Part shown: one piece after another, positions 1 through 14,464 of the stretch | Layout: every line of letters begins with the position of its first letter | Numbering within the stretch: position 1 is the stretch's first letter | IMG/VR virus record: IMGVR_UViG_3300032240_001836 | Location: 1 to 20,536 of that record | Length of the DNA stretch: 20,536 nt | Source of the DNA: a virus | Strand: one strand, 5' to 3' | Notes under the pieces: model-generated | What the model was told of the DNA's origin: nothing | The model's database searches: none | Seen by the model: only the letters and a program-made list of their open reading frames with translations | Made by a program: the position numbers and the translations under genes

Positions 1-1536
1 CCAGAAAATTATACGGCAAATATTAAAAACTCGGTAGCATCATTCACAGAATTAGAAGTTTATCAAGGAACCTTTCTTACGAAGCAATTTGTAGTTGATG
101 GGTCATTGGATCAGAGATTCATTATTGATAACCCATATGTTGATACATCGACTATTAGAGTTTATGTAAAGGGTCCTACAGATAGTGGAAAAGGATTAGA
201 ATATAGTCTTGCCGATAATATTTTTGATGTTAATGGAACTTCTAATATCTACCTTATTCAAGAAGTTCAAGATGAAAAATATGAACTTCTTTTTGGAGAT
301 GGAATCATTGGTAGAAAATTAGAAAATAATGCCGTCATTACAGTATCGTATATTGTTACTGATGGTAAGGAAGGAAATGGTGCCTCTAAATTCTCTTTTT
401 CGGGAACATTTAGAGGGTCAGCGGATGAACCAATTACTGCTCAGAATTCAATTTCAATTACAACAGTTCAATCCTCTCAAAATGGTGGAGATATTGAATC
501 TGTTGATTCCATAAAATATTTTGCTCCTAGAATATATTCTAGTCAATATCGTGCCGTAACCGCAAGGGATTATGAGGCAATTATTAAATCAATTTATCCT
601 GATGCAGAATCAGTTTCTGTTGTTGGTGGAGAAGATTTAGACCCACCCGAATACGGAACAGTATCGATTAGTATTAAACCAAAAAATGGAACATTTGTTT
701 CCGATTTTAATAAATCCCAAATTCTATTCAAACTAAAGCAATATTCTCTTGCTGGCATTAATCAAAAGATTGTTGACCTTAAAATTCTTTATGTTGAAAT
801 TGACTCATCAATTTACTATAATTATTCTCAGGTTTCTTCAGTAAATGATTTAAGAACCAAGGCAATTCAATCTTTAACAACTTATTCAAACTCCGTTGAT
901 TTGAATAAATTTGGTGGAAGATTTAAATATAGTAAAATCCAACAAATTATTGATAATACCGATGTATCAATTACATCAAATATCACTAAGGTTAAGATTA
1001 GAAGAGATTTGAAAGCTCTTCTAAATCAACCCGTTCAATATGAATTGTGCTTTGGTAATAGATTCCATATCAACCCTCTGGGTGGAAATATTAAATCAAC
1101 GGGATTTACAATTTCTGGGAAGTCGGGGACAATTTATATTACAGATACTCCAAACAAAAATATTAATGGAACTCTTGATGGAAGCAACAAAGGAGTTTTA
1201 GCATTATTTAAATATGATCAAAGTGGTAATATTGAAACAATTTCAAAATCAGCTGGTTCTGTAGATTATTCAAAGGGTGAAATTATTCTTGGACTTCCTG
1301 AGTATGTTGTTATTACATCAACACAAAAACCCAATGACATAATTGAAATACAGGCATATCCTGAATCAAATGATATTGTCGGTCTAAAAGACTTATACGT
1401 CTATTTTGATGTTACAAAAAGTTCAATAAATATGGTTAAAGATGTTATTGCATCTGGGGATAATATATCTGGAGTGTCCTTTACACAAGATTATTATACG
1501 TCAAGTTATTCAAATGGAGATTTAACGAGGTCATAA
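1..1536 (+). CDS. 6: Baseplate wedge subunit gp6 (T4 gene 6 homologue), 5'-partial
   Basis: Baseplate wedge protein; in T4, gp6 dimers link neighbouring wedges into the ring around the tail hub. The frame is open from base 1 to the TAA at 1534-1536 (511 residues visible), so the start lies upstream; T4 gp6 is about 660 aa. The TTG at 106 is not a believable start because the frame runs through it. Visible residues ~94-118 have the J-like signature YELLFGDGIIG followed by a Tyr-rich strand and TDGKEGNG. Residues ~168-230 contain YFAPRIYSSQYRAVTARDYE and a following VSVVGGED...PPEYGTV stretch, which matches the RAVT-x-x-DYE region of gp6/gpJ proteins. The C-terminal ~170 residues are beta-rich and less conserved. 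The next gene begins one base after the stop, indicating tight translational coupling. The identification rests on remembered family motifs and on gene order 6-7-8. Confidence 0.9.
   Translation, partial: PENYTANIKNSVASFTELEVYQGTFLTKQFVVDGSLDQRFIIDNPYVDTSTIRVYVKGPTDSGKGLEYSLADNIFDVNGTSNIYLIQEVQDEKYELLFGDGIIGRKLENNAVITVSYIVTDGKEGNGASKFSFSGTFRGSADEPITAQNSISITTVQSSQNGGDIESVDSIKYFAPRIYSSQYRAVTARDYEAIIKSIYPDAESVSVVGGEDLDPPEYGTVSISIKPKNGTFVSDFNKSQILFKLKQYSLAGINQKIVDLKILYVEIDSSIYYNYSQVSSVNDLRTKAIQSLTTYSNSVDLNKFGGRFKYSKIQQIIDNTDVSITSNITKVKIRRDLKALLNQPVQYELCFGNRFHINPLGGNIKSTGFTISGKSGTIYITDTPNKNINGTLDGSNKGVLALFKYDQSGNIETISKSAGSVDYSKGEIILGLPEYVVITSTQKPNDIIEIQAYPESNDIVGLKDLYVYFDVTKSSINMVKDVIASGDNISGVSFTQDYYTSSYSNGDLTRS
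1527..1530 (+). promoter_or_regulatory. Shine-Dalgarno GAGG for the giant gp7-like gene
   Basis: GAGG lies inside the end of gene 6, seven bases before the ATG at 1538. It is the best ribosome-binding site in the window. It supports 1538 as the true start and suggests translation of the giant gene is coupled to gene 6. Confidence 0.7.
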
Positions 1537-1537
1537 G

Positions 1538-4500
1538 ATGATAGAAACTGGTTTTGATACTAGGGTAAAGGTTCAGCAAATTGTAGCAAATCAGTTACCA
1601 GAGTTTATACTAGATGAAAGCCCTAAATCCTCAGAATTTCTAAAGCAGTACTATATCTCCCAAGAGTATCAGGGAGGTACAGTTGATATTGCCGAAAATT
1701 TAGATCAATATTTAAAACTTGATAACTTAATTCCCGAAGTTGTTGTTGGGATTACTTCCCTTTCAACAGATCTATCCATATCTTCTGGAATAGTTACCGT
1801 AACAAGTACAAAAGGATATCCAAATCAATACGGTCTTTTAAAGGTTAATGATGAAATCATTACCTATACTGGAATTACCACCAATACTTTCACTGGATGT
1901 ATTAGAGGATTCAGTGGAATTACTAGTTATCATGCACCAAATGATCAGGAGGAACTAGTATTCAGCCAAAGTAATGCATCCTCACATACTAATGGATCTA
2001 AGGTAGAGAACTTAAGTTCTCTCTTTCTAAAAGAATTTTATAAAAAAATTAAATATACCTTTACTCCTGGACTTGAAGATAAAGATTTTATTCCAGAATT
2101 AAAGGTCGGAAACTTTATAAAACAGGCAAGAGACTTTTATAAATCAAAAGGCACGGATCAATCATTTAGAATTCTTTTCAATATTCTTTATGGAGTAAAT
2201 CCTAAGGTTATTGATTTAGAGCAATTTCTAATTAAACCATCATCTTCTTCTTTTGTAAGAAGACAGATTGTTGTTGCAGAAAGAATTTCTGGAGATCCAA
2301 ATAAACTTGTTGGGCAGACAATTAGGAAATCGACAGACTATGGCACAAATGCTTCGGTTTCCGAAGTAGAAGTTTTAACCAGAAGAAATAAAATTTATTA
2401 TAAGATTAGTCTTTATGTTGGATTTGATCAAAAACCTCAAATTGAAGGCAATTTCAATATTTCTCCCAAAACAAAAGTTGTAGAAAATATATCCGTTGGG
2501 GCATCTGTTATCACAGTAGATTCCACAATTGGATTTACAACTTCTGGAACAGTTGTATCTGGAAATAATATTATTTCATATACTGATAAGACTATTAATC
2601 AGTTTTTGGGATGTTCTAATGTAGAATATGCAATTACAACCGCTGATGACATTAGATCCGATGAAATTTATTATGGATATGAAGATAATGATTTAACTAA
2701 AAAAGTTGAAATAAGAATCACTGGCGTTATTAGTGATTTTACAAATTTGAATGACTTTGGATTATCAATTGAAGGTGAGGAAATGAAAGTTTCCTATCTT
2801 GGACAAATTATTCAAAATCCAGAATTAAATAAGACTTATAAAGAAACTGTTGCCAATTCATTCATTTATAATACTAGCTCCAGATATTATGTCACATATT
2901 CTTCTGGATCATTCAAGACAAACAGCACAATTGATAAGTCTAGTTTAAGAGTTGGAGATTCTATCGAAGTATTAATTAGAGGATCTCAAACTGTAGTTTC
3001 TTCTCCAATAACTATTGCAACGATTACCAGCATCTCTGGAAATACAATTAATGTCACAAATCTTCTAGATTTAAATGGACAAACTTTTGATCCTACAAAT
3101 TCTAGTAAAGTATATTTTGGCAGAGATCTTGATATTAGAAGAAAAGTTAAAAAGGCAACAAGTTCTGGCGCATCTTTAGATTATGGAAATAATACATTAC
3201 TTTCAGATGTTCAGAATGTATATGATGATAATGGTGGAAATCTATATGTAGCGTCAAATTCATTACCATCTTATAATATAACACAAAATATATTTGAACT
3301 TGATATCCCTACAGCAAGTATCTTATATTTACAAGACAAGGATATTAATCAAAAATATTCAACTATTTCATTTGATTTTTCTAGTGGTTCTAGCAATGGT
3401 TTAAAAGGATTTACTCAAGTACCATTTTTAACTGGTGATAAAGTTTTTTATTCTCCAGAAAATATTCCCATTACAGGATTAGAAAGAGGATTTTATTATG
3501 TTGAAGTTGTTAGTCAAACTAATATTAGACTATATGCTTCACAATCATTCATCGTAAGTGGAAATTATATCCCATTAGATATTCCACTGAATGCGAATGG
3601 TTCCCATACATTTACTTTAGCAAATCAAAGAAGCAAAAATATTTCTACACAAAAACTATTAAGAAAAATTCCAACTACTGAATTAAATCCAACAGACTCT
3701 GGTGATATTACAACTCCTGGTCCAATTGGAATATTAATCAATGGTGTTGAAATACAAAATTATAAGTCTGCCGACAAAATTTATTATGGACCTCTAGAAT
3801 CGGTTAATATTTTAAATGGTGGAACTGATTATGATGTTATTAATCCACCGTTACTAACTGTTGAATCTGGATTAGGCATAACTGCTTTAGTTAATCCAGT
3901 TATAACTGGGTCGATTCAAAAAATCTTTATTGACCCACAAGATTTTGATTTAGATGTTGTAGTTTCTGTTGCCGTTTCTGGAGGAAATGGAATTGGCGGA
4001 GTCTTTGAACCAATTTTGGAGAAGAGGCGCAGGTCAATCTATTTTGATGCTAGAGATACTAATAATTCTGGTGGAATAGATTTAATAAATGAGACGATCA
4101 CTTTTAAAACTAATCATAATCTCAGAGATAGAGATGCCATAATTTATAGCACAAATGGAAACTCTCAGATAGGAATTGGTCCATATGGTGGATCAGATGC
4201 AAGTTCTGGTTCTTATCTCAGAGATGGAACAATTTATTATGCAAAAGTTGTTAATTCCAAAACAATACAGTTGTATAACTCATTATCAGATTTTAGTTCT
4301 GGTATTAATACAGTTGGTTTCACCACAATCAACACATATGGACTTCAAAAATTTCAAACTTTTGCTTTAAAAAATACTTTATCTGAAATCAAAGTAGTTG
4401 ATGGGGGGAGTGGATATTCTAATAGAAGAGTAATTGTAAATCCTACAGGAATATCTACTTTTGATCATACAGTTAACTTCACCAATCATGGATTTAATAA

Positions 4501-7500
4501 TGGTGACTTTGTAGTATATACTTATGATACTACTGCGATTAGTGGTCTCTCTTCTTCTAATCAATATAAAGTATTGAAGATTGATACTAATACTTTTAGA
4601 TTGTCAAATACTGGAATTGGTGGGACAAATCTTTCGGATTATCAAAGAGGAAAATATGTAAAATTCTCTTCTTCTGGATCTGGATATCAATATTTTTCAT
4701 ACCCAAGGATTGCAGCAACTATTAACTATTCTGTAGGAATTAACAGTGCAGCGATTGGTATTATGACTGCCACACCAATTGTTAGAGGTGAAATTGTTGA
4801 TACCTATCTTTATGAACCTGGAACAAATTATGGATCTAAAATTTTAAACTTCCATAAAAAACCTAAGATTTCTATTAATAATGGGAGCAATGCTGAGTTA
4901 GTTCCCATAATTATAGGTGGTTCAATTGTATCGGTTCAGATAAAATATGGCGGAGTAAATTATTATTCAACTCCAGACATTAATGTAATTGGGGACGGCA
5001 ATGGTGCTATATTAAGACCTTCCATTTCAAATGGAAGAATAATTAAAGTCTTTGTTCAAAATGGGGGTCAAAATTATACAGCAGAAAATACTTTTATTAA
5101 TGTTGTTCCTGCAGGTAAAAATGCAATTATTGAAGCATCGGTTAGATCTCTTACTTTAAATAATAATTATAGATTTAGTAGTAATGAAATTATTACTGGT
5201 GAAGATTCTTTGGAATATTCAATTGGTGGATATATTTCTCAAGTAAGAAGTGCTGTTAATGATAATAGTCAAAGCACAAATGCACACTCACCATTAATTG
5301 GATGGGCTTATGATGGAAATCCAATCTATGGTGCATATGGATATCCAGATCCAACTGTTGTATCAGATTGCACAATATTAAGACCTGGATATACTTTAAA
5401 TTCAAATAATATTTTTAATAGGCCTTCTTTAAGTAATTTCCCTTCAGGTTTCTTCGTTGAAGATTATATTTTTAATAACTCTGGTGATTTAGATTATTCA
5501 AACGGAAGATTCTGCAAAACTCCAGAATTCCCATTAGGTACATATGCATATTTTGCTGGCATAACAACAGGGTCCAGTCAGGTTTTACCATCATTCCCAT
5601 ATTTTGTTGGCAATAGATTTAAAAATAATTTTATTGAAGAAAATAGAACTTTAAATCAATCTTTTGATTTTAATAATTCATCACTGATTAGAAACACTCT
5701 TCCATATAAAATTAATGATCAATATGCGGATAACGATTTTATTATAGAATCAAATGAAATAGTAAATCAAAAAGTAACAGTTGATTCTATCAAAAAGGGT
5801 AAAATTGAAGGATTTGAAGTTATCAATTCTGGAGATAGATATTCTGTTGGAGACACTTTAATATTTGACAATACTGGAACATCTGGAAGCAATGTAGATG
5901 CAAAGGTATTCAGTCTAACAGGTAAAGCAATTGTTGATATTAATACATCTATAGAAACTTATAATAATGCAATTTTCACTAGAAAAGATGGAAATTCTAT
6001 TAACGTAACTACTTTACCTTATCATACTTTTTCTGATGGTGATAATGTTACAATATCAGGATTTTCAACATATTTAAGTGTTTTAAATGGTTCTTATCCT
6101 ATTGGAGTTACTTCTTACAGCACAACCTTGACCAATACTATGGCATCAAGTCCATCTGTAGGGTTAATAACCGATATCTATGTTGCGAATGTTCCACCCA
6201 ATATTTCAATTGGAAGTAGTATTAGTGTAGGTATAGGATCGGAGATTCTTTCTATTGTTTATATTTTTGATACTAATAACGTTATAAGAGTTAAGAGATC
6301 TGCTGTTGGAGTTGCGTATAGTGCCACAACAGTTATTAACTATCTACCAGATACTTTTACTATTAATAATAAAACAGCATATTTTGATTCAACCCTAAAC
6401 AATAAGGTATTTTTTAATCCAATAGAATCTGTTGGTTTAGGAACATTGGTTGGTATTGGAACAACTGTTAGTTATAAACTTAATGGTCAACAATATATTG
6501 GAATTGGAACAACAGGTTCTTCTTCACTTTTAAGAACTATTCCAACTCAAAGTATCTATATTAAAAATCATCCATTCAAAGACAATCAACAGGTACTTTT
6601 CAAAAAACCAGTTGGAGTAGCAGCAACTGCCCTGATTGTATCAGCAACTTCTGGAGTTACAACTACATTTTTATTACCATCACCATCAGATAGTCAAGTT
6701 GTTTATATAACAAATAAATCAAGAGATACAATTGGAATTAAAACTCAACTAACTTCTAGTGAAATATTCTTTATTCAGAATGGAACAGATAATTATGAGT
6801 ATTCTATAGAGTCCGTTTTCCCACAATTAACGGGTAGAGTTGATAAAATAAAATCCACAGTTTCAGTTTCGACTTCTCACGGACTTCTACAGAATGATAC
6901 CATAAAACTTTCAGTTGAACCAAATCTTTCAGTAGGAATAGGCACTTCTAGCTCTGTTTATGTTTCATATTATGCTGCCAAGAAACAACTTATCTTTAAT
7001 CCAATCGGATTTACTTCTGTTGGAATTAATACTCTTAATAATACTATTAATCTACCAAATCATAATTTAAATACTGGTGATAAAGTATTTTATAAAGCAG
7101 ACGATGCTGCAGCATTAGGACTAACAACTGGTGGGTATTTTGTTTATAGAGTCAATGGTGATAATATCCAATTATCAGAAACATACATTGATAGTATCTC
7201 AAATCCACCAACTGTTGTTAATATTATTGGATATTCGGGAATTGGAACCGGTGGGAATTATCAGCAAATTGGACTTATAAATCCAGAAATTAAATCAATT
7301 AAAGGAAACGATCTTGTATTTAATGTATCGGATACTTCTTTATCTGGTTATAATTTTAAAATATACAGCGATAACCAATTCAAAAATGAATTTGTTTCAA
7401 TCGCAGGAACATCTACTCTTAGTGTAATTGGAATAGGAAGTCTTGGAACTCCTTCGGCAACTAAAACTATTCAATATAATTCAAAATTACCAAGCAAACT

Positions 7501-10500
7501 ATTCTATGCATTAGAAAAATCTGGATATCTTAGCACATCAGATAAAGATGTTAATAACTATTCCCAAATAACTTTTATTGATAGCACCTATACTGGTGAT
7601 TATTCAATTACTGGTGTAGGAACGACGACATTTAGTTTTTCTTTACAATCTATTCCAGAAAAATCGGTTTATAAAGCAAGTGATTGTTCGATATTAAAAT
7701 ACACTACTAAGTCAAAAACAGCAACTGGGGGAGTTGATAAGATAAGAATTATTTCTGGTGGATATAATTATAAAAAATTACCAAAAGTAAGTTATATTGA
7801 TAGTCAGTATGGTTCAAGTGCATATATTGTTCCAACGTCATCAACTATTGGAAAGATAAATGAAGTTAAAATTATAAATCAAGGATTTGAATATACTTCC
7901 GATAAAACTTTGAGACCATCGGCAAGTATATCAAATTATATTGTAATTGATTCTTCAAATACACTTACAGGAATTAATGTTGATTATGGTGGAAATTATT
8001 ATTCCTTTGCACCATCTGTAGTAGCTATAAATCCAAATACTGGAAGAGAAGTAGAAGATTATGTTTTAAATGCATCCCTTAAGGGATCGAGTATTAGTAA
8101 AATTGATATTGTTAAGAGTCCAAAAGGTCTTCCAGCGACACCAATACAAATATTCACATTAAATAATTCAAACGGAATATCAGTAGATACAATTGTAACT
8201 TCTCAGGCAGGTATTGCCACTTGCACATTGGTTACTCCAGTGTTGGGATTTAGCACTAATGTGTTTGGTATTGGAGATAAGGTTTTTGTCGAAGGAATAC
8301 AAAAATCTGGCACAACAGGAACAGGGTATAATTCTGCAGATTATGGGTATAAGTTTTTTACTATTACAAATTACCAAAATACAATTCCAGCAACAGTAGA
8401 ATTCTCAGTATCTCAATACAGCAGTAATCCAGGAATTGCTAAGACCATTCAAGATTCTTTTGGAACAATTATTAAATATCGTGATTATCCACAATTTACA
8501 ATTTTTCAGGAACCATCTACATTTATACTTGGTGAAAAATTATCATCTTCTACTGGATCCGTATTTACTGAAAGGGATTTGACTATTACTGAGTATAGTG
8601 TAGATTCAATAAAAGCAATCGGATCATATTCACTTTCATCGGGTGAGCGCATTAAGGGACTTATATCTGGATCTGTTGCTACTATTAATAATGTTATTGA
8701 TAGGAAAGGAAGATTTGAAACTGATTACTCTACAAAAAATAATTATGATTGGATTGATGAAGTAGGAAGATTGAATGATGACGTTCAAGTAGTAAATGAT
8801 AGCAATTATTATCAAAATCTTTCTTATACTATAAAAAGTCCAATTCAATATGAAGAGTTAAAAACATCCGTAAATTCTTTACTTCATACTACTGGATTAA
8901 AGAATTTTGCAGATACTCAAGTTCAATCAGTTGCAAGAAGCGGAATTGGTTCTACTGATGGAACTACTATTATTTACGATATTCAAACTGAAAATAGAGT
9001 AGATACTATCAATGCATTTGATTTTGCAATTGATATAAATGTATCCAATAATAGATCTAAATTTTTAAAATTAAAAAATAAAAAATTATCTAGTTATATT
9101 GAATGTAGAACAAATAGGGTTCTTCAAGTAGATGATGTATCAACACAATTTACAAATAATGATGCACCAGCTGTTGGATATGCAGATCTAATTACTTATA
9201 ATCTTCCAGATAATTTTGCAACATATCTGGTTCAAATTATCAATACTTCAAAAAGTAGATATCAATTTACTGACTTAGTAGTTCTTGTAGATAATGAGTA
9301 TAATGTATTTACTCTTCAAAGACAATCTTTAAACGACTCTATAATTAAAGTTGCAGATCTTGATGGATATATTGATGATGCTTTAAGAACAATTAGTTTG
9401 AGATTTACTCCTCTAGATCGTTTTAATGATGACTATGATATTAAGGTAATTAAGTCTAGTTTCCCAGGAGCAAGTATTGGAATAGGAAGCACAAATGTAG
9501 GATTCGTTAAATTGACGAATTCTGGATATTATGTCTCACCTGGCAATACCCAATCATTAGTATCGGTAGCGACGACAACAAATTATAATTCTTTTTATGG
9601 AACATTCCAAGTAGTTGATAATGTTACCAACTATATGGATTTTGTTGAGTTGTATATGACCTATGATGGTCAAAATACATACACAACTCAATACTTCTAT
9701 GATACAAGTTCACTATCAAACAATTATTCTGGTCAATTTATAGGATCTTTTGGAGCATCAGTATCATCTGGTGTTCTATCAATAGATTATACTAATGACA
9801 CTTCAAATTTAGTTACAGTAAATTCAAAAATAGTTGGATTCGGAACAACATCTGTTGGAATTGGAACTTATAGATTCTTGGTTTCAGGTCAAAGTGATGG
9901 GTATGAAAGATCTGCAAGATACGAATCTATTTACTCAAGGGTTTCAACTGCTTCAACAATTATTTCATATTCAGTTAATGATGCGGGTTGTTTTAAAGCA
10001 AAAGTTAATTTAAGTATTGGATCAACCAGTGAATTACATCAGATCATGTTTATGTCTGATGGTGTAGATAGTTTTATAACTCAATATCCAATTCTATCTA
10101 ATAATACTACATCAGGAATAGGAACTTTTGGTACAGTTTATTCTCCACTTTATAATCAACTTGTATTTTATCCAGACTCTAGTTTAGGTGGTGCAACCGT
10201 TGAAGTTAAAATTTATAATGAAGTATTTTATATTGATGCGGATTATAATAATACACCACCAAATCTAGTTTATGGAACTGGTGAAGATAAATTTACAATT
10301 ACTCCATATAATGGATTGAATGCAAGAAGAATTAATAAATTGGATTTTGAAATGAATTATCAAGGAATTCCAATTTACAAAAAAACATTTAATCCATCAA
10401 ATCCAGTTCAATTAAATCCATCTACTGGTGTAATTACAATTCCAAACCATTTCTTCAATACTGCTGAAGAATTAATTTATAACCCTGCAACAACTTTTTT

Positions 10501-13500
10501 GGGTGTTGCAGTCACTTCAATTGGAATAGGTGCAACATTAAGTTATACTGGTGTTGTAACTTCTTTCTTACCACCAAGAGTTTATCCAATTAAACTTGAT
10601 AATAACAATTTCCAGTTAGCTACAAGAAAAGAATACGCCCAATCTGGAATTTATGTTACATTTACTTCTCTTGGATCTGGTAATGCTCATGAACTAGAGA
10701 TGACCAAGAAATTGGAAAAATCTTTAATCACAATTGATAGTGTTGTTCAGGCACCTCTTGCTTATTCATTACTAAATTATCAATTAAAATATAATAGTGA
10801 TGCAGTCACTGGATTTTCTAGTGCGATTGATCCGACTTATTCAATACTACAGTATAGTCCATGGTCAGATACATTATTCAACCAAGAAGATGAATTATTC
10901 ATAGTAAATACACCACAACCAATTGGAACTAAATTTGGAATTGGTGCTGGTAATACTTATTTTTCAATTAGTGGAATTTCTTCCATTAAACCAACAGATC
11001 TTCTTAAAATTGATGATGAATATGTTAGAGTTGTTTCTGTCGGACTTGGGACAACTAGTGGAGCACCTATCACTGGATTAGGAACTTATTATATTCTCAA
11101 TATTCAAAGAGGATATGCTGGAACTCTTGCAACTTCACATGTTAATGACTCTAATATGTCTCTTTATAGAGGATCCTATAATATTGTTGGAAACAAACTA
11201 TGGTTTACCGAGTCTCCAAGAGGAAATGCGGTAACAAAGAGAGATATTAGTAATTTAGAGCAAGCAAAATCATCCTTTACTGGAAGAGTATATCTTAGAA
11301 AGGATTATACTACAAATACGCTATATGATAATATCTCAGAGAAATTCACTGGAATTGGACAAACTTATATCTTTACATTAAATGGATTGAATACCACTGG
11401 TATTGGATCCACTGGTGGTAATGGAATTCTCTTTATCAATAGCATTTTCCAAACTCCATCAACACAAAATAACACTGGAAATAACTATACTGTTGTTGAT
11501 AATGCAGCTCTTGGAATTACTAGTGCGGTATTCAGTGGTATTACCTCAACAAATGGTCAGATTATTAAATCCATTTCTGATGTAAATCAAAATCAACTTC
11601 CAAGAGGTGGTATTATTGTTTCCTTAGGATCTAGTGAAGGTTCTGGATATGCACCTTTAGTAGGTGTTGGAAGCACTGGAATTCAAATTAAACTCAGTGG
11701 TGGGTCAATTTCTTCAATTGGATTTACAACTTCTTTCATTGTTGGTGTAGCAGTTACTGGATTAATTGGAATTACAACTAATACAATTACAGGTATTACT
11801 ACTAACTCTATCTCTGTAGGGCAACAAATTCAAGCGACTGGTGTTGTCACAACTGGAACTTATGTAACTTCTATTGGATTTGGAACCATCTTCATCAATA
11901 GTAATTCTACAAATGCAGTTGGAATAGCAACAACATTTGCATTTAGATCCGAACCAAACTTTGGGTCTGGATATTTTGGAACAGTATCTATTGGAATATC
12001 GGATCCAACTGGTTCTGGAGCAGTAATTTATGGTAGAGTCGGTTCTGGTGGTTCTATCTCTGGATTTGTAATTCAAAACGGTGGAAGTGGCTATACAAAT
12101 CCATATGCTCAAGTTGCACCACCAAATTATGAAAATCTTCCAATCATTGGTGTTTCTAGATTAAGTATTGGTTCAACTACTGATACTGGAGTAGGGTTAC
12201 AGATGAATGTAACCGTTGGACCAAATGCATCTGGTCTGACAATCATTTCCAACAGAAATGCTGATGCATCTAACTTAATCCTTTCAAACAAACAGTTAAT
12301 TGCTGAAGTTGCTGTAGGAAGAATGTTGGCTGCATATCCATCATTTGTAATTCCTGGAGGAAATCAAAACTGTATTGAAGATATAGTAACAGTATTAGAA
12401 TGTATTGCTTATAACTTGAAATATGGTGGAAACAGCAGAGTATATGATGCTGCTAAGATTTATATTGATAATCAGTATCTTGCTGGAGAAGAAACGCAGT
12501 CAATCTATGCTTTTGTTCAAGCAAAAGATATGGCAATTCAAGCGATGACCAATCAACCAATCACAATTGGTGGTTACTCATCACAATCTCAATATTTTGA
12601 CTATACAATTATCCCAGACCCATTAACAGGATTTAATACCAGTCCAGCATCTTGTGCAGATGTTGCTTCAGCAATTACTCAGTTTGTTGGTATTGTTACA
12701 TATGCAATTGGAACCAATACTTTACCTGTTACTAAGACTGGAGTTGCATCAACAGTCTTTGATGTTCAGTCGTTTAAAATTACTAGACCTGGTTATGGTT
12801 TCCAAATTGGTGATGTATTTAAACCAGTAGGTCTTGTAACTGCAAAAGATCTCTCTGCACCTCTGAAAGAATTTAAATTAACTGTTCTCAGCACATTTAG
12901 TGATTCATTTGCAGCTTGGCAATTTGGAGAAATGGATTATATTGATTCCATTAAATCTATGCAGGATGGTAGCAGAACAAGATTCCCACTTTATTATAAT
13001 TCTCAATTATTGAGTTTTGAAATTAACCCCAATGACCAAGATTCTGCAAATATTGATCTTGGACCAATTCTTCTCATCTTTGTTAATGGTATTGTTCAAG
13101 CTCATGGCGATACATATGAATTTGATGGTGGTTCTTCATTCGTATTCAAATACCCACCATTACCAGAAGACAATATTGCAATTTTCTTCTATAGAGGAAC
13201 AAGAAATCAAGATAGTTCTTTAGTATCAGTTAGTGAAACTATTAAGAGAGGGGATACTGTTCAATTATTCAGAAATCCAATAGTTTCTGGAGTTACAACT
13301 GCTCAAAATTCAAGATTAATTTCTTATATTTCTGCTTCTGATAAATTTGAAACCAATATTTATGCAGATCAGGGAGTTGATAGCAAGAATTATAAACCAC
13401 TTAGTTGGACAAAGCAAAAAGTTGACTCTAAAATTAATGGTGAAATTGTTAGAAAAACTAGAGATTCAATCGAAGGTGAAGTTTACCCGACAGCGAGAAT

Positions 13501-14464
13501 TATTAAAGATTTTAAATCTTCCGATACTGAAGTATTTGTAGATGATGCGAATTTCTTTAAATATGAACAAAACCAAACGGCAGCATACACAAGTCCATTA
13601 GCACCTATTACGATTGGTAGTTTTGGTGCATTAATTATTAGTGGAAAGGATGATCCAGTATCTGCAGCATTAACTGCGACAGTTTCTGCTGCAGGGACAA
13701 TTTCGGCATTAACAATTACTAATAGTGGTTCTGGATATACTGGAACAACAATTCCAGTAAAAATTGCTCGGCCAAGAGTTATTGGTGTTGGTATTGGATC
13801 AACTGCGATTGCAACAGTAAATATTTCAAATGGAAGTATTTCATCTCCAGTTATTACTAATCCAGGATATGGATATACTACTCCACCCCAAGTCATTGTT
13901 GCGTATCCTAGTCCAACTATTGAAAAAATTGGTGGAGCATCTTTAGTACAAGGTTTCTCTGGAATTATCACTGGAATTGGAACTACAACAGGAACAAATG
14001 GCAATCCTCTTGCACTTAGATTCTATTTGAATGTAAATTCTCCAAATTCATTCCCATCTGGATTGACTACTGGATATCCAATTTATATTTCTGATACAAT
14101 AGTCGGCGTGGGAATAACTTCAATTGATAGTGGTGATAGTGCAGTTGTTGGGGTAGGAACTACTTATGTAAATAATATTTACTATATTCATTCATTTAAT
14201 TATGTTTCTGTTGGATCAACCAGTGCCGAGATTACTTGTAACATTAAATCAAATACTTCAGTAGTTGGTTTATCGACCACTGGAAATAAATTTACTGGAA
14301 GATTCTCTTGGGGAAGAATTTCAGGATTTAGTAGGTCTACAACTCCAATTTCAATTGGAGTAAGTGGTTATACTATAACTTCTGGATTAACCACATTCGC
14401 ATCAATTCAGAGACGTGGATATGGATTAAGAGATATTGGTCCACTTAAAAAGGACCTAGGTTAA
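1538..14464 (+). CDS. 7: Giant baseplate wedge protein, gp7-like N-terminal core plus ~4000-residue modular extension
   Basis: Uninterrupted 4308-codon frame in the T4 gene 7 slot. T4 gp7 (about 1030 aa) is the wedge scaffold contacting gp10, gp8 and gp6. Residues ~15-65 and ~150-300 resemble the conserved part of gp7: a helical FLKQYY...ENLDQYL segment, then ARDFYKSKGTDQSFRILFNILYG, then LVGQTIRKSTDYG (T4 has FYSTKGIEASYKFLFKVLY and LVGQTIYTATG, from memory). Further on, by residue: eight His-x-Phe/Leu...GD modules (~628-3000), thirteen Gly-Gly-x-x-Tyr modules (~760-4110), a YHYH-type domain (~1225-1345), VNG/IDS-VQ modules (~3064, 3295, 3843), a Cys-containing helical domain (~3570-3725) and a conserved tail ending RRGYGLRDIGPLKKDLG. 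No signal peptide or membrane segment is seen. The start is supported by GAGG and the one-base gap after gene 6. Base composition is like its neighbours. The gp7 core assignment is fairly secure; the function of the extension is inference. Confidence 0.85.
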   Translation: MIETGFDTRVKVQQIVANQLPEFILDESPKSSEFLKQYYISQEYQGGTVDIAENLDQYLKLDNLIPEVVVGITSLSTDLSISSGIVTVTSTKGYPNQYGLLKVNDEIITYTGITTNTFTGCIRGFSGITSYHAPNDQEELVFSQSNASSHTNGSKVENLSSLFLKEFYKKIKYTFTPGLEDKDFIPELKVGNFIKQARDFYKSKGTDQSFRILFNILYGVNPKVIDLEQFLIKPSSSSFVRRQIVVAERISGDPNKLVGQTIRKSTDYGTNASVSEVEVLTRRNKIYYKISLYVGFDQKPQIEGNFNISPKTKVVENISVGASVITVDSTIGFTTSGTVVSGNNIISYTDKTINQFLGCSNVEYAITTADDIRSDEIYYGYEDNDLTKKVEIRITGVISDFTNLNDFGLSIEGEEMKVSYLGQIIQNPELNKTYKETVANSFIYNTSSRYYVTYSSGSFKTNSTIDKSSLRVGDSIEVLIRGSQTVVSSPITIATITSISGNTINVTNLLDLNGQTFDPTNSSKVYFGRDLDIRRKVKKATSSGASLDYGNNTLLSDVQNVYDDNGGNLYVASNSLPSYNITQNIFELDIPTASILYLQDKDINQKYSTISFDFSSGSSNGLKGFTQVPFLTGDKVFYSPENIPITGLERGFYYVEVVSQTNIRLYASQSFIVSGNYIPLDIPLNANGSHTFTLANQRSKNISTQKLLRKIPTTELNPTDSGDITTPGPIGILINGVEIQNYKSADKIYYGPLESVNILNGGTDYDVINPPLLTVESGLGITALVNPVITGSIQKIFIDPQDFDLDVVVSVAVSGGNGIGGVFEPILEKRRRSIYFDARDTNNSGGIDLINETITFKTNHNLRDRDAIIYSTNGNSQIGIGPYGGSDASSGSYLRDGTIYYAKVVNSKTIQLYNSLSDFSSGINTVGFTTINTYGLQKFQTFALKNTLSEIKVVDGGSGYSNRRVIVNPTGISTFDHTVNFTNHGFNNGDFVVYTYDTTAISGLSSSNQYKVLKIDTNTFRLSNTGIGGTNLSDYQRGKYVKFSSSGSGYQYFSYPRIAATINYSVGINSAAIGIMTATPIVRGEIVDTYLYEPGTNYGSKILNFHKKPKISINNGSNAELVPIIIGGSIVSVQIKYGGVNYYSTPDINVIGDGNGAILRPSISNGRIIKVFVQNGGQNYTAENTFINVVPAGKNAIIEASVRSLTLNNNYRFSSNEIITGEDSLEYSIGGYISQVRSAVNDNSQSTNAHSPLIGWAYDGNPIYGAYGYPDPTVVSDCTILRPGYTLNSNNIFNRPSLSNFPSGFFVEDYIFNNSGDLDYSNGRFCKTPEFPLGTYAYFAGITTGSSQVLPSFPYFVGNRFKNNFIEENRTLNQSFDFNNSSLIRNTLPYKINDQYADNDFIIESNEIVNQKVTVDSIKKGKIEGFEVINSGDRYSVGDTLIFDNTGTSGSNVDAKVFSLTGKAIVDINTSIETYNNAIFTRKDGNSINVTTLPYHTFSDGDNVTISGFSTYLSVLNGSYPIGVTSYSTTLTNTMASSPSVGLITDIYVANVPPNISIGSSISVGIGSEILSIVYIFDTNNVIRVKRSAVGVAYSATTVINYLPDTFTINNKTAYFDSTLNNKVFFNPIESVGLGTLVGIGTTVSYKLNGQQYIGIGTTGSSSLLRTIPTQSIYIKNHPFKDNQQVLFKKPVGVAATALIVSATSGVTTTFLLPSPSDSQVVYITNKSRDTIGIKTQLTSSEIFFIQNGTDNYEYSIESVFPQLTGRVDKIKSTVSVSTSHGLLQNDTIKLSVEPNLSVGIGTSSSVYVSYYAAKKQLIFNPIGFTSVGINTLNNTINLPNHNLNTGDKVFYKADDAAALGLTTGGYFVYRVNGDNIQLSETYIDSISNPPTVVNIIGYSGIGTGGNYQQIGLINPEIKSIKGNDLVFNVSDTSLSGYNFKIYSDNQFKNEFVSIAGTSTLSVIGIGSLGTPSATKTIQYNSKLPSKLFYALEKSGYLSTSDKDVNNYSQITFIDSTYTGDYSITGVGTTTFSFSLQSIPEKSVYKASDCSILKYTTKSKTATGGVDKIRIISGGYNYKKLPKVSYIDSQYGSSAYIVPTSSTIGKINEVKIINQGFEYTSDKTLRPSASISNYIVIDSSNTLTGINVDYGGNYYSFAPSVVAINPNTGREVEDYVLNASLKGSSISKIDIVKSPKGLPATPIQIFTLNNSNGISVDTIVTSQAGIATCTLVTPVLGFSTNVFGIGDKVFVEGIQKSGTTGTGYNSADYGYKFFTITNYQNTIPATVEFSVSQYSSNPGIAKTIQDSFGTIIKYRDYPQFTIFQEPSTFILGEKLSSSTGSVFTERDLTITEYSVDSIKAIGSYSLSSGERIKGLISGSVATINNVIDRKGRFETDYSTKNNYDWIDEVGRLNDDVQVVNDSNYYQNLSYTIKSPIQYEELKTSVNSLLHTTGLKNFADTQVQSVARSGIGSTDGTTIIYDIQTENRVDTINAFDFAIDINVSNNRSKFLKLKNKKLSSYIECRTNRVLQVDDVSTQFTNNDAPAVGYADLITYNLPDNFATYLVQIINTSKSRYQFTDLVVLVDNEYNVFTLQRQSLNDSIIKVADLDGYIDDALRTISLRFTPLDRFNDDYDIKVIKSSFPGASIGIGSTNVGFVKLTNSGYYVSPGNTQSLVSVATTTNYNSFYGTFQVVDNVTNYMDFVELYMTYDGQNTYTTQYFYDTSSLSNNYSGQFIGSFGASVSSGVLSIDYTNDTSNLVTVNSKIVGFGTTSVGIGTYRFLVSGQSDGYERSARYESIYSRVSTASTIISYSVNDAGCFKAKVNLSIGSTSELHQIMFMSDGVDSFITQYPILSNNTTSGIGTFGTVYSPLYNQLVFYPDSSLGGATVEVKIYNEVFYIDADYNNTPPNLVYGTGEDKFTITPYNGLNARRINKLDFEMNYQGIPIYKKTFNPSNPVQLNPSTGVITIPNHFFNTAEELIYNPATTFLGVAVTSIGIGATLSYTGVVTSFLPPRVYPIKLDNNNFQLATRKEYAQSGIYVTFTSLGSGNAHELEMTKKLEKSLITIDSVVQAPLAYSLLNYQLKYNSDAVTGFSSAIDPTYSILQYSPWSDTLFNQEDELFIVNTPQPIGTKFGIGAGNTYFSISGISSIKPTDLLKIDDEYVRVVSVGLGTTSGAPITGLGTYYILNIQRGYAGTLATSHVNDSNMSLYRGSYNIVGNKLWFTESPRGNAVTKRDISNLEQAKSSFTGRVYLRKDYTTNTLYDNISEKFTGIGQTYIFTLNGLNTTGIGSTGGNGILFINSIFQTPSTQNNTGNNYTVVDNAALGITSAVFSGITSTNGQIIKSISDVNQNQLPRGGIIVSLGSSEGSGYAPLVGVGSTGIQIKLSGGSISSIGFTTSFIVGVAVTGLIGITTNTITGITTNSISVGQQIQATGVVTTGTYVTSIGFGTIFINSNSTNAVGIATTFAFRSEPNFGSGYFGTVSIGISDPTGSGAVIYGRVGSGGSISGFVIQNGGSGYTNPYAQVAPPNYENLPIIGVSRLSIGSTTDTGVGLQMNVTVGPNASGLTIISNRNADASNLILSNKQLIAEVAVGRMLAAYPSFVIPGGNQNCIEDIVTVLECIAYNLKYGGNSRVYDAAKIYIDNQYLAGEETQSIYAFVQAKDMAIQAMTNQPITIGGYSSQSQYFDYTIIPDPLTGFNTSPASCADVASAITQFVGIVTYAIGTNTLPVTKTGVASTVFDVQSFKITRPGYGFQIGDVFKPVGLVTAKDLSAPLKEFKLTVLSTFSDSFAAWQFGEMDYIDSIKSMQDGSRTRFPLYYNSQLLSFEINPNDQDSANIDLGPILLIFVNGIVQAHGDTYEFDGGSSFVFKYPPLPEDNIAIFFYRGTRNQDSSLVSVSETIKRGDTVQLFRNPIVSGVTTAQNSRLISYISASDKFETNIYADQGVDSKNYKPLSWTKQKVDSKINGEIVRKTRDSIEGEVYPTARIIKDFKSSDTEVFVDDANFFKYEQNQTAAYTSPLAPITIGSFGALIISGKDDPVSAALTATVSAAGTISALTITNSGSGYTGTTIPVKIARPRVIGVGIGSTAIATVNISNGSISSPVITNPGYGYTTPPQVIVAYPSPTIEKIGGASLVQGFSGIITGIGTTTGTNGNPLALRFYLNVNSPNSFPSGLTTGYPIYISDTIVGVGITSIDSGDSAVVGVGTTYVNNIYYIHSFNYVSVGSTSAEITCNIKSNTSVVGLSTTGNKFTGRFSWGRISGFSRSTTPISIGVSGYTITSGLTTFASIQRRGYGLRDIGPLKKDLG
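1580..2440 (+). other. gp7 core region within the giant protein, interrupted by an inserted beta module
   Basis: Protein residues ~15-300. The FLKQYYISQEYQGG...ENLDQYLKLDN segment and the GNFIKQARDFYKSKGTDQSF...LFNILYGVNPKVIDLE segment together correspond to the most conserved region of T4 gp7. Between them, residues ~69-150 form a separate beta module (GIVTVTSTKGYPNQYGLLKVNDEI, then ITYTG, then FTGCIRGFSGITSYH). It is followed by KVENLSSLFLKEFYKKIKY, where the helical core resumes. The boundaries are by eye. Confidence 0.65.
1742..1945 (+). repeat. IITYTG/RGxxGT-type beta module, copy 1 (others near 2474-2640 and 10953-11150)
   Basis: Three places in the giant protein share the plan: hydrophobic strand, V-x-S-T/I-x-G-F/Y, strand with (I/V)-(D/N)-D/N-E-(I/Y)-(I/V)-x-(Y/V), then a Cys/Gly-Arg-Gly loop ending near His. 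Copy 1 (residues ~69-136) has GLLKVNDEIITYTG and GCIRGFSGITSYH. Copy 2 (~313-368) has VITVDSTIGFTTSGTVVSGN and IISYTD...FLGCSN and is degraded at its end. Copy 3 (~3139-3202) has FSISGISSIKPTDLLKIDDE and NIQRGYAGTLATSHV. The similarity is at protein level only. Confidence 0.55.
3421..4605 (+). repeat. His-x-Phe/Leu...GD-x-V-x-Y module array, first three copies
   Basis: Repeated plan: N-H-x-(F/L)-x-x-G/R-D-x-(V/I)-(V/I/F)-Y, a 15-50 residue loop, then Y-x-V/K-V-(V/L)-x-x-(N/D)-(T/S)-x-(F/I)-(R/Q)-L. Copies here: FLTGDKVFYSPENIP...YYVEVVSQTNIRLY (residues ~630-668, lacking the His), NHNLRDRDAIIYS...YYAKVVNSKTIQLY (~857-916) and NHGFNNGDFVVYTY...YKVLKIDTNTFRL (~981-1020). Later copies lie near 6007, 6556, 6866, 7047 and 10435. 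Probably a small independent beta domain; function unknown. Confidence 0.55.
3812..5110 (+). repeat. Gly-Gly/Pro-Gly-x-x-Tyr repeat cluster, five copies
   Basis: Each unit is a hydrophobic strand, then (N/D/Y)-G-G or P-G, two residues, Tyr, 3-8 residues often with Pro-Pro or Thr-Pro, then a strand of I/V-x-I/V. Copies: NGGTDYDVINPP (residues ~760), VDGGSGYSNRRVIVNP (~953), EPGTNYGSKILNF (~1091), YGGVNYYSTPDINVIG (~1136) and NGGQNYTAENTFINVVP (~1174). The same unit recurs later in this protein and in gp8. Confidence 0.6.
5210..5575 (+). other. YHYH-type domain inside the giant baseplate protein
   Basis: Residues ~1225-1345 carry the hallmark pattern HSPLIGWAYDGNPIYGAYGY (His1250 to Tyr1269), then a Pro-rich linker, a DLDYSNGRFCKTPEFP segment and TYAYFAG. 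This matches the YHYH domain family (Pfam YHYH, from memory), whose usual plan is H-S-P-x-x-G-(Y/W)-A-x-D-G-x-P-I-Y-G followed by L-D-x-x-N-G-R and a YHYH or YxYx strand. Here the final motif reads Y-A-Y-F (1336-1339). The family's biochemical function is not established. Its presence amid phage beta repeats suggests an outward-facing decoration. Confidence 0.7.
5810..5930 (+). repeat. Single diverged Gly-x-x-Tyr repeat unit
   Basis: Protein text EVINSGDRYSVGDTLIFD followed by GSNVDAKVFSLTG (residues ~1427-1463). It keeps the N-S/G-G-x-x-Y core and adds a GDTLIFD strand, a form also seen at ~3748 (TRPGYGFQIGDVFKPVG). Confidence 0.45.
6007..7200 (+). repeat. His-x-Phe/Leu...GD-x-V-x-Y module array, four further copies
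   Basis: Successive modules: YHTFSDGDNVTISGFS (residues ~1493), NHPFKDNQQVLFKKPVG (~1676), SHGLLQNDTIKLSV (~1778) and NHNLNTGDKVFYKADD...YFVYRVNGDNIQLSE (~1840-1885). An eighth, diverged copy, NHFFNTAEELIYNP...YPIKLDNNNFQLA, sits at about 10435-10625. Copies vary in loop length and completeness, as expected of old duplications rather than a recent tandem amplification. Confidence 0.5.
7735..8060 (+). repeat. Gly-x-x-Tyr repeat cluster, three copies
   Basis: Consecutive units ISGGYNYKKLPKVSYID (residues ~2071), INQGFEYTSDKTLRPSASI (~2112) and VDYGGNYYSFAPSVVAINP (~2147), about 35-40 residues apart. The regular spacing is the clearest tandem arrangement of this unit in the window. Confidence 0.6.
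10725..11165 (+). other. ITIDSVVQAPL plus ISGISSI/LLKIDDE tail-type module
   Basis: Residues ~3064-3205: ITIDSVVQAPL, then a variable stretch, then FSISGISSIKPTDLLKIDDE and NIQRGYAGTLATSHV. This combination resembles modules seen in other large cyanomyovirus structural proteins. It is probably beta-rich; role in the virion unknown. Confidence 0.45.
12245..12715 (+). other. Helical domain inserted in the beta-rich C-terminal third
   Basis: Residues ~3570-3725 switch from Gly/Thr/Ile beta sequence to an apparently helical one: NADASNLILSNKQLIAEVAVGRMLAAYP, then CIEDIVTVLECIAYNLKYGG, then YDAAKIYIDNQYL and AFVQAKDMAIQAMTNQ, ending with CADVASAITQFVGIVTYAIG. It contains three Cys (in CIED, LECIA and CADV). 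The same helical block, as I recall, recurs in other cyanophage virion proteins. It could be a trimerisation or chaperone-like element, but no function is known to me. Confidence 0.5.
12900..13260 (+). other. LLIFVNGIVQ structural module
   Basis: Residues ~3790-3910 read SMQDGSRTRFPLYYNSQLLS, later LGPILLIFVNGIVQAHGDTY and SSFVFKYPPLPEDNIAIFFY, then ETIKRGDTVQLF. The plan (DGsrt-x-F-x-L, LLIFVNG-x-x-Q, F-x-F-x-x-P-P/A, D-x-(I/V)-x-I-F-Y-x-G) is that of a beta module common in phage fibre and baseplate proteins. A shorter relative with ILFINSIFQTP lies at ~11345-11600. Confidence 0.5.
13700..13925 (+). repeat. Gly-x-x-Tyr repeat pair near the C-terminus of the giant protein
   Basis: Units TNSGSGYTGTTIPVKIARP (residues ~4060) and TNPGYGYTTPPQVIVAYP (~4106) separated by a GVGIGSTAIATV strand. 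Two more units lie upstream at ~12074 (QNGGSGYTNPYAQVAPP) and ~12783 (TRPGYGFQIGDVFKPVG). Confidence 0.6.

Follow-up and report, generated by a model that had tools for sequence, protein, structure and literature searches.

The virus sequence IMGVR_UViG_3300032240_001836, an uncultivated virus record of 20,536 bases that was analyzed in its entirety (referred to as the window) and presumably represents just part of a larger phage genome, contains a giant open reading frame (ORF) for gp7, a baseplate wedge protein of a T4-like cyanophage. As judged by sequence comparison, a domain of the phycobiliprotein family, of the beta type, is inserted into the roughly 4000-residue modular tail of this protein, and the cysteine at the place of the chromophore site was invariant in all copies of the domain that cover it. 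That the tails of abundant marine viruses contain a phycobiliprotein domain whose chromophore cysteine is invariant was unexpected and is the surprising part of this study; the part of the open-licence literature that was searched contained no mention of such a domain in cyanophage tail machinery. We propose that gp7 is a virion protein with a chromoprotein domain and that the virions might carry covalently bound bilins, a reading to which we give an even chance.

We compared the window protein with the gp7-slot proteins of the cyanophages S-SRM01, P-SSM2, S-T4, and Sf-CH8. It was collinear with these four relatives from residue 1 to about 3376 and from about 3735 to the end, and highly variable in between. 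Identity per 100-residue bin was mostly 30–60%, with the best value of 74% in the first bin. The contents of the variable slot differed between the phages. In P-SSM2, S-T4, and Sf-CH8 the slot was longer (about 600 to 1200 residues) and of different sequence, and no Pfam family matched its contents over the cut-off. The window slot ends with the phycobiliprotein domain (searched as nucleotides 12215–12745), which the four relatives do not have there. In S-SRM01, residues 3565 and 3732, which flank the domain in the window protein, both align to residue 3415, a clean absence of the cassette.

The inserted domain is almost certainly a phycobiliprotein. In isolation it matched PF00502 (Phycobilisome) with 29.1 bits (cut-off 22.2), and 33 of 54 aligned members of the domain family gave a PF00502 match at E ≤ 0.1. 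In a phmmer search of the PDB the best match was phycocyanin beta (6jpr_B, E 4e-6), and the best 60 of the 68 sequences found at E < 10 were phycobiliprotein chains, including 8u0f, which is titled only "bacterial fluorescent protein". A profile search of the PDB gave 162 matches at E ≤ 10, the best with 7.4e-8. AlphaFold2 (AF2), run without templates on 54 sequences from the window and virus contigs, predicted an all-helical structure with a predicted local distance difference test (pLDDT) of 90.5 and a predicted template modeling score (pTM) of 0.86. The best 50 of the 398 PDB matches of this model in Foldseek (E ≤ 10) all belonged to the phycobiliprotein family, 8u0f included, with E-values from 1.3e-4 to 4.4e-3 and template modeling scores of about 0.6. 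VIA-align, which re-ranks the Foldseek list and with which helical models can reach Z-scores of about 13 by chance, gave Z-scores of 14.8–16.8 for its best 50 rows, which were phycoerythrin and phycocyanin beta chains (7lj0_B: 2.1 Å over 135 residues). Among predicted viral structures, 27 matches were found at E ≤ 0.001, and those with a name belonged to cyanophages or uncultured phages and were for the most part structural and tail proteins.

The phage domain shares with the beta subunits of phycocyanin and phycoerythrin the PF00502 fold, the CXXD motif with the chromophore cysteine and, usually, a second cysteine. It differs from them in that it is part of a virion protein and not free, the match starts near beta-subunit residue 32, the loop before the cysteine is shortened, the arginine of the motif is mostly replaced, usually by aspartate, and the bilin is putative. 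An aspartate of the phage domain occupies the position of Asp39 of phycocyanin beta. Its location in a virion protein makes a role of the domain in alpha/beta pairing and the assembly of phycobilisomes less likely.

The CXXD cysteine of the phage domain aligns with the cysteine of the CXRD motif of phycocyanin beta, which is the established bilin-attachment site of that protein. We analyzed the conservation of the phage domain in a nonredundant set of 80 domain copies with less than 80% mutual identity and at least 100 columns covered. Cys53, Asp56, and Tyr83 of the domain were invariant (80/80 each), as were Ala18 and Asn25 (76/76), and Asp17 was conserved in 93%; identity to the window copy fell to 24% in this set. 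When all matches covering the site were counted, contig duplicates included, cysteine and aspartate were both present in 225 of 225, each encoded by two synonymous codons (TGT and TGC for cysteine); 97 other matches end short of the site. Both residues were present in all 22 covered copies from five isolate loci, and 15 of these copies had the complete CXRD; six further fragments miss the motif. The second cysteine was found in 47 of 59 nonredundant copies and in 185 of 214 covered matches. Since the CXXD cysteine is the sole cysteine in 26 of the 80 copies, some of which are partial, it is not kept for an obligate intradomain disulfide.

The CXRD motif has also been discussed for the bilin-binding globins (BBAGs), which are likewise phycobiliprotein relatives outside phycobilisomes (PMC10151467). 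One group of BBAGs lacking CXRD is described there as still binding bilin, indicating that the arginine is not strictly required. BBAGs are free bacterial proteins encoded in bilin-gene clusters, and their bilin binding has been demonstrated, whereas that of the phage domain is putative. Overall, we judge the question of bilin binding by the phage domain, as far as its sequence informs us, to be about evenly balanced.

To determine the distribution of the domain, we searched 50,697 phage records by tblastn and found it in 357 of them at 989 places, all in cyanophages or marine viruses. A set of 92 loci, in which six contigs are present twice, gave together with the window 322 matches, some partial, in 86 sources, with up to 12 matches per locus. 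Copies, often several per protein, occur widely in the giant proteins of cyanophage baseplates and tail fibres. The domain was present in 19 of 26 isolates (13/17 in a first set and 6/9 in a second), with short, weaker matches in S-CAM7 and ACG-2014f, and was not found in the other seven, T4, S-SRM01, P-SSM2, S-SSM7, S-CREM2, S-CRM01, and S-SM2. Likewise, it was not found in the podoviruses P-SSP7 and Syn5 and the pelagiphage HTVC008M. A PF00502 signal was obtained for 11 of the 26 isolates (6 over the cut-off), all within the 19 domain-bearing ones, and among 14 control genomes for Synechococcus elongatus only. Bacterial genome contigs were searched with exact peptide patterns from a 120-aa piece, an insensitive approach that gave 46 pattern matches and no relatives. 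Among 72,556 plasmid records the sole match was an unannotated region of a 1.2 Mb plasmid of the cyanobacterium Kovacikia minuta (NZ_CP083583.1, 107807–108199; 31%, E 3e-4), which is possibly a phycobiliprotein gene.

Two peculiarities of domain-bearing loci were observed. Single loci (L053, L055, L064, L092, and others) contain 10–12 domain matches, many spaced about 130 residues apart, which suggests repeat expansion in tail proteins. The S-PM2 record (165928–177267) has sixteen annotated tRNA genes that fall within the coordinates of a giant domain-bearing tail ORF and share its strand; the ORF is a long open frame, and this nesting, or its annotation, is odd.

We also analyzed the 26 isolates for genes of bilin attachment and synthesis. 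Seven of these isolates came from the list of domain matches and the rest from the list of gp7 matches, a paper or background knowledge of the group. The bilin lyase CpeT (PF06206) was found over the cut-off in 14 of the 19 domain-bearing isolates and in none of the seven others (Fisher p 0.0012; 0.0026 without T4). Among nine long virus contigs, which may be incomplete, CpeT was encoded by two of seven with the domain and by neither of the two without it. In S-PM2 and S-WAM2, cpeT is located about 1.3–1.5 kb upstream of the giant domain-bearing tail ORF, and in S-RSM4, by coordinates, within a few kb of domain matches. The complete set of heme oxygenase, bilin reductase, CpeT, and, within gp7, two CXRD domains occurs in P-HM1, which infects Prochlorococcus MED4, and cpeT is also present in the Prochlorococcus phages P-SSM4 and P-RSM4. 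Prochlorococcus lacks standard phycobilisomes, and the use of bilin genes to its phages has been called unclear (PMC2984593). S-SZBM1, too, carries cpeT (PMC9146016). In beta subunits, the Cys153-type site is the one on which T-type lyases act (PMC10452541).

In the mechanism that we propose, bilins would be supplied by the host or by phage enzymes and would be accepted by the invariant CXXD cysteine and usually also by the second cysteine. Attachment would occur before or during assembly by means of host lyases or the phage T-type lyase CpeT, and the assembled virion would be pigmented, with bilins bound covalently on baseplate or fibres. In S-SZBM1, a search with the S-WAM1 homologue, which carries the gp7 core, placed a gp7-type N-terminus near 169,107 (minus strand), and a domain copy lies at 152,920–153,420 on the same strand, under a feature annotated "baseplate wedge initiator". 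A 19.9 kb gene starting at 169,107 would span this copy, and therefore the S-SZBM1_208 protein detected in virions (see below) should include it.

A more speculative step is that the pigment might protect against light, or might be a light sensor that gates adsorption in those cyanomyoviruses in which it is known to depend on light; photoreception by a virion pigment is speculation at present. Light-dependent adsorption has been described for several marine cyanomyoviruses (PMC2984593, PMC7238727). P-HM2, for which we found six domain matches, was unable to adsorb in the dark, and P-SSP7, for which we found none, was able to do so (PMC7112961); these phages differ in virion type too, and the comparison is hence a lead only. 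That many T4-like cyanophage virions are pigmented via domains in gp7 and fibres and use them as CpeT-loaded photoreceptors which permit adsorption in the light only is, in our view, unlikely. P-SSM2 reportedly adsorbs in the dark, which was not used as evidence here.

Several observations weigh against a pigmented virion. The window copy has the motif CIED instead of the canonical CXRD and lacks a loop of about seven residues before the cysteine, which makes its bilin binding less certain than that of CXRD copies, and in the nonredundant set CXRD was present in only 23 of the 80 copies. Within the whole 4308-aa protein, PF00502 scored 21.7 bits, slightly under the cut-off of 22.2. The two gp7 copies of P-HM1 gave no PF00502 match as single copies and were recognized by the family profile only; one of them, searched against the PDB, gave no match. 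The domain is missing from several complete genomes, including that of S-SRM01, which has the most similar gp7 core, and is thus dispensable in the lineage. The CpeT association was obtained with non-random isolates and with statistics that ignore phylogeny, and of the 14 isolates with CpeT, the other 11 have its gene tens of kb away from the domain. Neither bilin reductase (over the cut-off in 4/19 isolates with the domain vs. 2/7 without) nor heme oxygenase (1/19 vs. 2/7) was associated with the domain, and bilin-synthesis genes were therefore rejected as its predictor; P-SSM2 and S-SSM7 have both genes and no domain. The S-type lyase was found only in S-CREM2, which is domain-free. With respect to the light sensor, a review credits light-dependent adsorption to host photosynthesis (PMC9229316).

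Some of these observations could be explained if the domain were a helical module derived from a phycobiliprotein that serves as structural spacer or adhesin, has lost bilin binding, and retains CXXD because the motif aids folding, caps a helix or forms an intermolecular disulfide. We consider this a serious possibility, with a probability clearly short of even. It would fit the loss of the motif arginine in 57 of the 80 nonredundant copies, the shortened loop of the window copy, the varying presence of the domain in related phages, its position within modular tail proteins, and the missing linkage between bilin-synthesis genes and the domain. Against it speak the invariance of cysteine and aspartate at identities to the window copy down to 24%, the CXXD cysteine as the only one in 26 of the 80 copies, the retention of CXRD in 15 of the 22 covered isolate copies, and the confinement of CpeT to domain-bearing isolates.

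Alternatively, phage CpeT might serve host phycobilisomes only, its co-occurrence with the domain being a consequence of shared ancestry and the domain having a function unrelated to bilins. Such a role agrees with the literature, in which cpeT is seen as an aid to host phycoerythrin or light harvesting in infected cells (PMC2984593, PMC10452541), with the absence of CpeT from five of the 19 domain-bearing isolates and with an association test blind to phylogeny; it is more difficult to reconcile with the absence of CpeT from all six cyanophage isolates without the domain, with the proximity of cpeT to the domain-bearing tail ORF in S-PM2 and S-WAM2, and with the presence of cpeT in P-HM1, P-SSM4, and P-RSM4, although their Prochlorococcus hosts lack phycobilisomes (PMC2984593). 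We regard this explanation as tentative, and about as probable as the loss of bilin binding in a structural module. From work by Gasper in 2017, the phage lyase PhiCpeT is said to form a complex with phycoerythrobilin without transferring it to the host beta subunit; this was not used as evidence.

The giant size of gp7 is ordinary in T4-like cyanophages and already-known biology. Residues 1–1000 matched 462 phage records, and every one of these bears the name Synechococcus, Prochlorococcus, Cyanophage or Marine virus. The gp7-slot proteins of S-SRM01, S-T4, Sf-CH8, and P-SSM2 have lengths of 3895, 4749, 4878, and 5195 aa, respectively, and mass spectrometry of purified virions recovered 71 peptides (13.5% coverage) of S-SZBM1_208, a "baseplate wedge initiator" with 6619 aa (PMC9146016). 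S-CREM2 has a gp7-slot protein of 1937 aa, as read from coordinates, and ORF122 of this phage, a protein of this kind, is part of the virion proteome with 91 unique peptides (PMC10665884). An earlier sequence-only reading of the window, which regarded the giant gp7 as an unusual architecture, is not sustained by these records, and we rejected the size of the protein as a novelty. In the Prochlorococcus phage P-SSM2 and further T4-like cyanophages, gp7 ("baseplate wedge initiator", PHROG 2885) lies in the same gene order, gp6-gp7-gp8 and then a further giant gene, and has the same N-terminal core, and its collinear main segment of about 3000–3600 residues is 39–47% identical to the window protein.

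The extreme length could also mean that the ORF encodes a polyprotein, from which the gp7 core is cleaved so that the phycobiliprotein domain is free in the infected cell, and intactness is not visible from mass spectrometry tables. We consider this very unlikely, since a gp7-slot protein of 724 kDa is listed as one virion entry (PMC9146016; peptide positions unseen) and the four translated homologues are uninterrupted frames.

Two further gp7 loci deviated from this organization. In S-SKS1 (HQ633071), the gp7 region at about 16998–29385 consists of four long frames (708, 1601, 1113, and 739 aa), partly unannotated; the frame breaks are either real in the virus or sequencing errors. In S-WAM1, the core at the gp7 N-terminus (805–3204 of its locus) is interrupted by roughly 500 inserted residues. 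The 800-aa N-terminal stretch of S-WAM1 also matched seven Sinorhizobium and four Methylophilales phage records, indicating that relatives of some part of it extend beyond cyanophages.

The gene order gp6-gp7-gp8 and the homology to the core of T4 gp7 identify the ORF, at the level of sequence, as a genuine gp7 wedge protein of a T4-like cyanophage. When 16 cyanophage sequences were compared with 12 T4-type sequences by hhalign, residues 198–291 aligned with residues 732–812 of T4 gp7 (90%, E 1.5e-6). With a narrower, overlapping cyanophage set the values were 69% and E 4.3e-5, and with T4 gp7 as lone sequence 16.5% and E 0.0015. PHROG matches were reciprocal: the window protein matched PHROG 964 (T4 gp7) with E 1.6e-4, and T4 gp7 matched the cyanophage family with E 1.3e-4. 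The AF2 model of residues 1–400 was poor (pLDDT 67, pTM 0.39); its top Foldseek match, the T4 baseplate chain 5iv5_BJ (E 6e-3, prob 0.54), gives weak support, and the 1004 residues of this chain are a length suiting gp7. A single-sequence phmmer search of the PDB with the gp7 N-terminus gave no matches, and none of the Pfam domains Gp7_helical, Gp7_5th, and Gp7_6th, which T4 has, was reported in the first 400 residues or in the whole protein. As these domains were built on T4-type gp7, their lack limits the membership to the core without excluding it.

The sequence-only reading had correctly placed the gene in the gene 7 slot, as it sits between gp6 and gp8, and had noted that about 4000 residues follow the core without a stop, as is the case in the 4308-aa open frame; it did not mention the phycobiliprotein domain. 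Its claim that the first ~300 residues resemble the core of T4 gp7, for which it had suggested a profile comparison, was borne out by this comparison; the matching part of T4 gp7, however, is located at about residues 730–812 and not at the T4 N-terminus. T4 gp7 (1032 aa; PDB 5IV5; PHROG 964) thus has the wedge core in common with the window protein, and no counterpart of its own N-terminal ~640 residues was found in the latter. The core is N-terminal in the window protein and followed by a distinct part of about 4000 residues, whereas it is close to the C-terminus in T4 gp7. Therefore, the idea of a T4 gp7 with an extension at its end was rejected, and each lineage has its own appendage. That the slot protein is not gp7 at all, in line with the statement that gp7 is missing from cyano- and pelagimyophages and that VrlC is present in its stead (PMC7029224) and with the lack of Pfam Gp7 domains in the protein, is highly improbable and was rejected in view of the profile match, the reciprocal PHROG matches, the weak structural match to 5iv5_BJ, and the fact that the relatives also carry a gene annotated VriC, located 3′ of gp8. 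From the sequence comparisons, the published absence of gp7 appears doubtful, at least for cyanophages.

The positions of the features in the window are listed in Table 1. The giant ORF has an ATG start, one base past the end of the gp6 frame at 1536, and contains no internal stops; the longest ORF on the opposite strand over 1538–14464 has just 173 aa. The giant protein matched PHROG 2885 as "baseplate wedge subunit", and the Gp6_C domains of Pfam were weak and below the cut-off in the gp6 frame. The gene at the position of the DUF4815 gene is annotated "virulence-associated VriC protein" in S-SRM01, S-T4, and Sf-CH8, and the two were likened by position alone. With 525 aa, the window gp8 is longer than T4 gp8 (about 334 aa). 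PHROG 460 (head closure Hc2) was matched by gp8 near residues 200–277 and by gp7 at residues 4010–4125; the adjoining baseplate proteins gp7 and gp8 may thus have a repeat-like domain in common.

Table 1. Positions of genes, domains, and putative chromophore-site codons in the 20,536-base window.
Feature	Position	Strand	Remarks
gp6, baseplate wedge subunit	1..1536	+	PHROG 219 E 3e-142; 5′ end cut by window
Giant gp7, baseplate wedge protein, 4308 aa	1538..14464	+	Single open frame; PHROG 2885 E 0
gp7 core, residues 1–310	1538..2467	+	T4-matching part is residues 198–291 (2129–2410), T4 gp7 732–812
YHYH domain, residues 1238–1342	5249..5563	+	Pfam PF14240 77.1 bits (cut-off 25)
Variable module slot, residues 3377–3731	11666..12730	+	Alignment gaps and insertions
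Inserted phycobiliprotein (beta-type) domain, residues 3566–3731	12233..12730	+	Missing at this place in 4/4 compared gp7s
Cys codon of CXXD, residue 3612 (domain Cys53)	12371..12373	+	Aligned with CXRD cysteine of phycocyanin beta
Asp codon of CXXD, residue 3615 (domain Asp56)	12380..12382	+	80/80 nonredundant, 225/225 covered
Second Cys, residue 3706	12653..12655	+	Place of second bilin site (Cys153-type) of beta subunits; alignment weak, insignificant stretch
gp8, baseplate wedge subunit, 525 aa	14493..16070	+	Pfam Phage-Gp8 49.2 bits (cut-off 25); PHROG 438 E 1e-156
DUF4815 structural protein, VrlC-like by position	16074..20534	+	Pfam PF16075 206 bits; PHROG 358 E 0; runs off window

The presence of a phycobiliprotein domain in cyanophage tail proteins bears on the use of bilin genes to phages of Prochlorococcus (PMC2984593) and on what lies behind the inability of some cyanophages to adsorb in the dark (PMC7112961). 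If virions carry bilins on this domain, the phage lyase and some of the bilin genes would have a purpose, also in phages of the phycobilisome-free Prochlorococcus, and light-dependent adsorption would have a mechanism.

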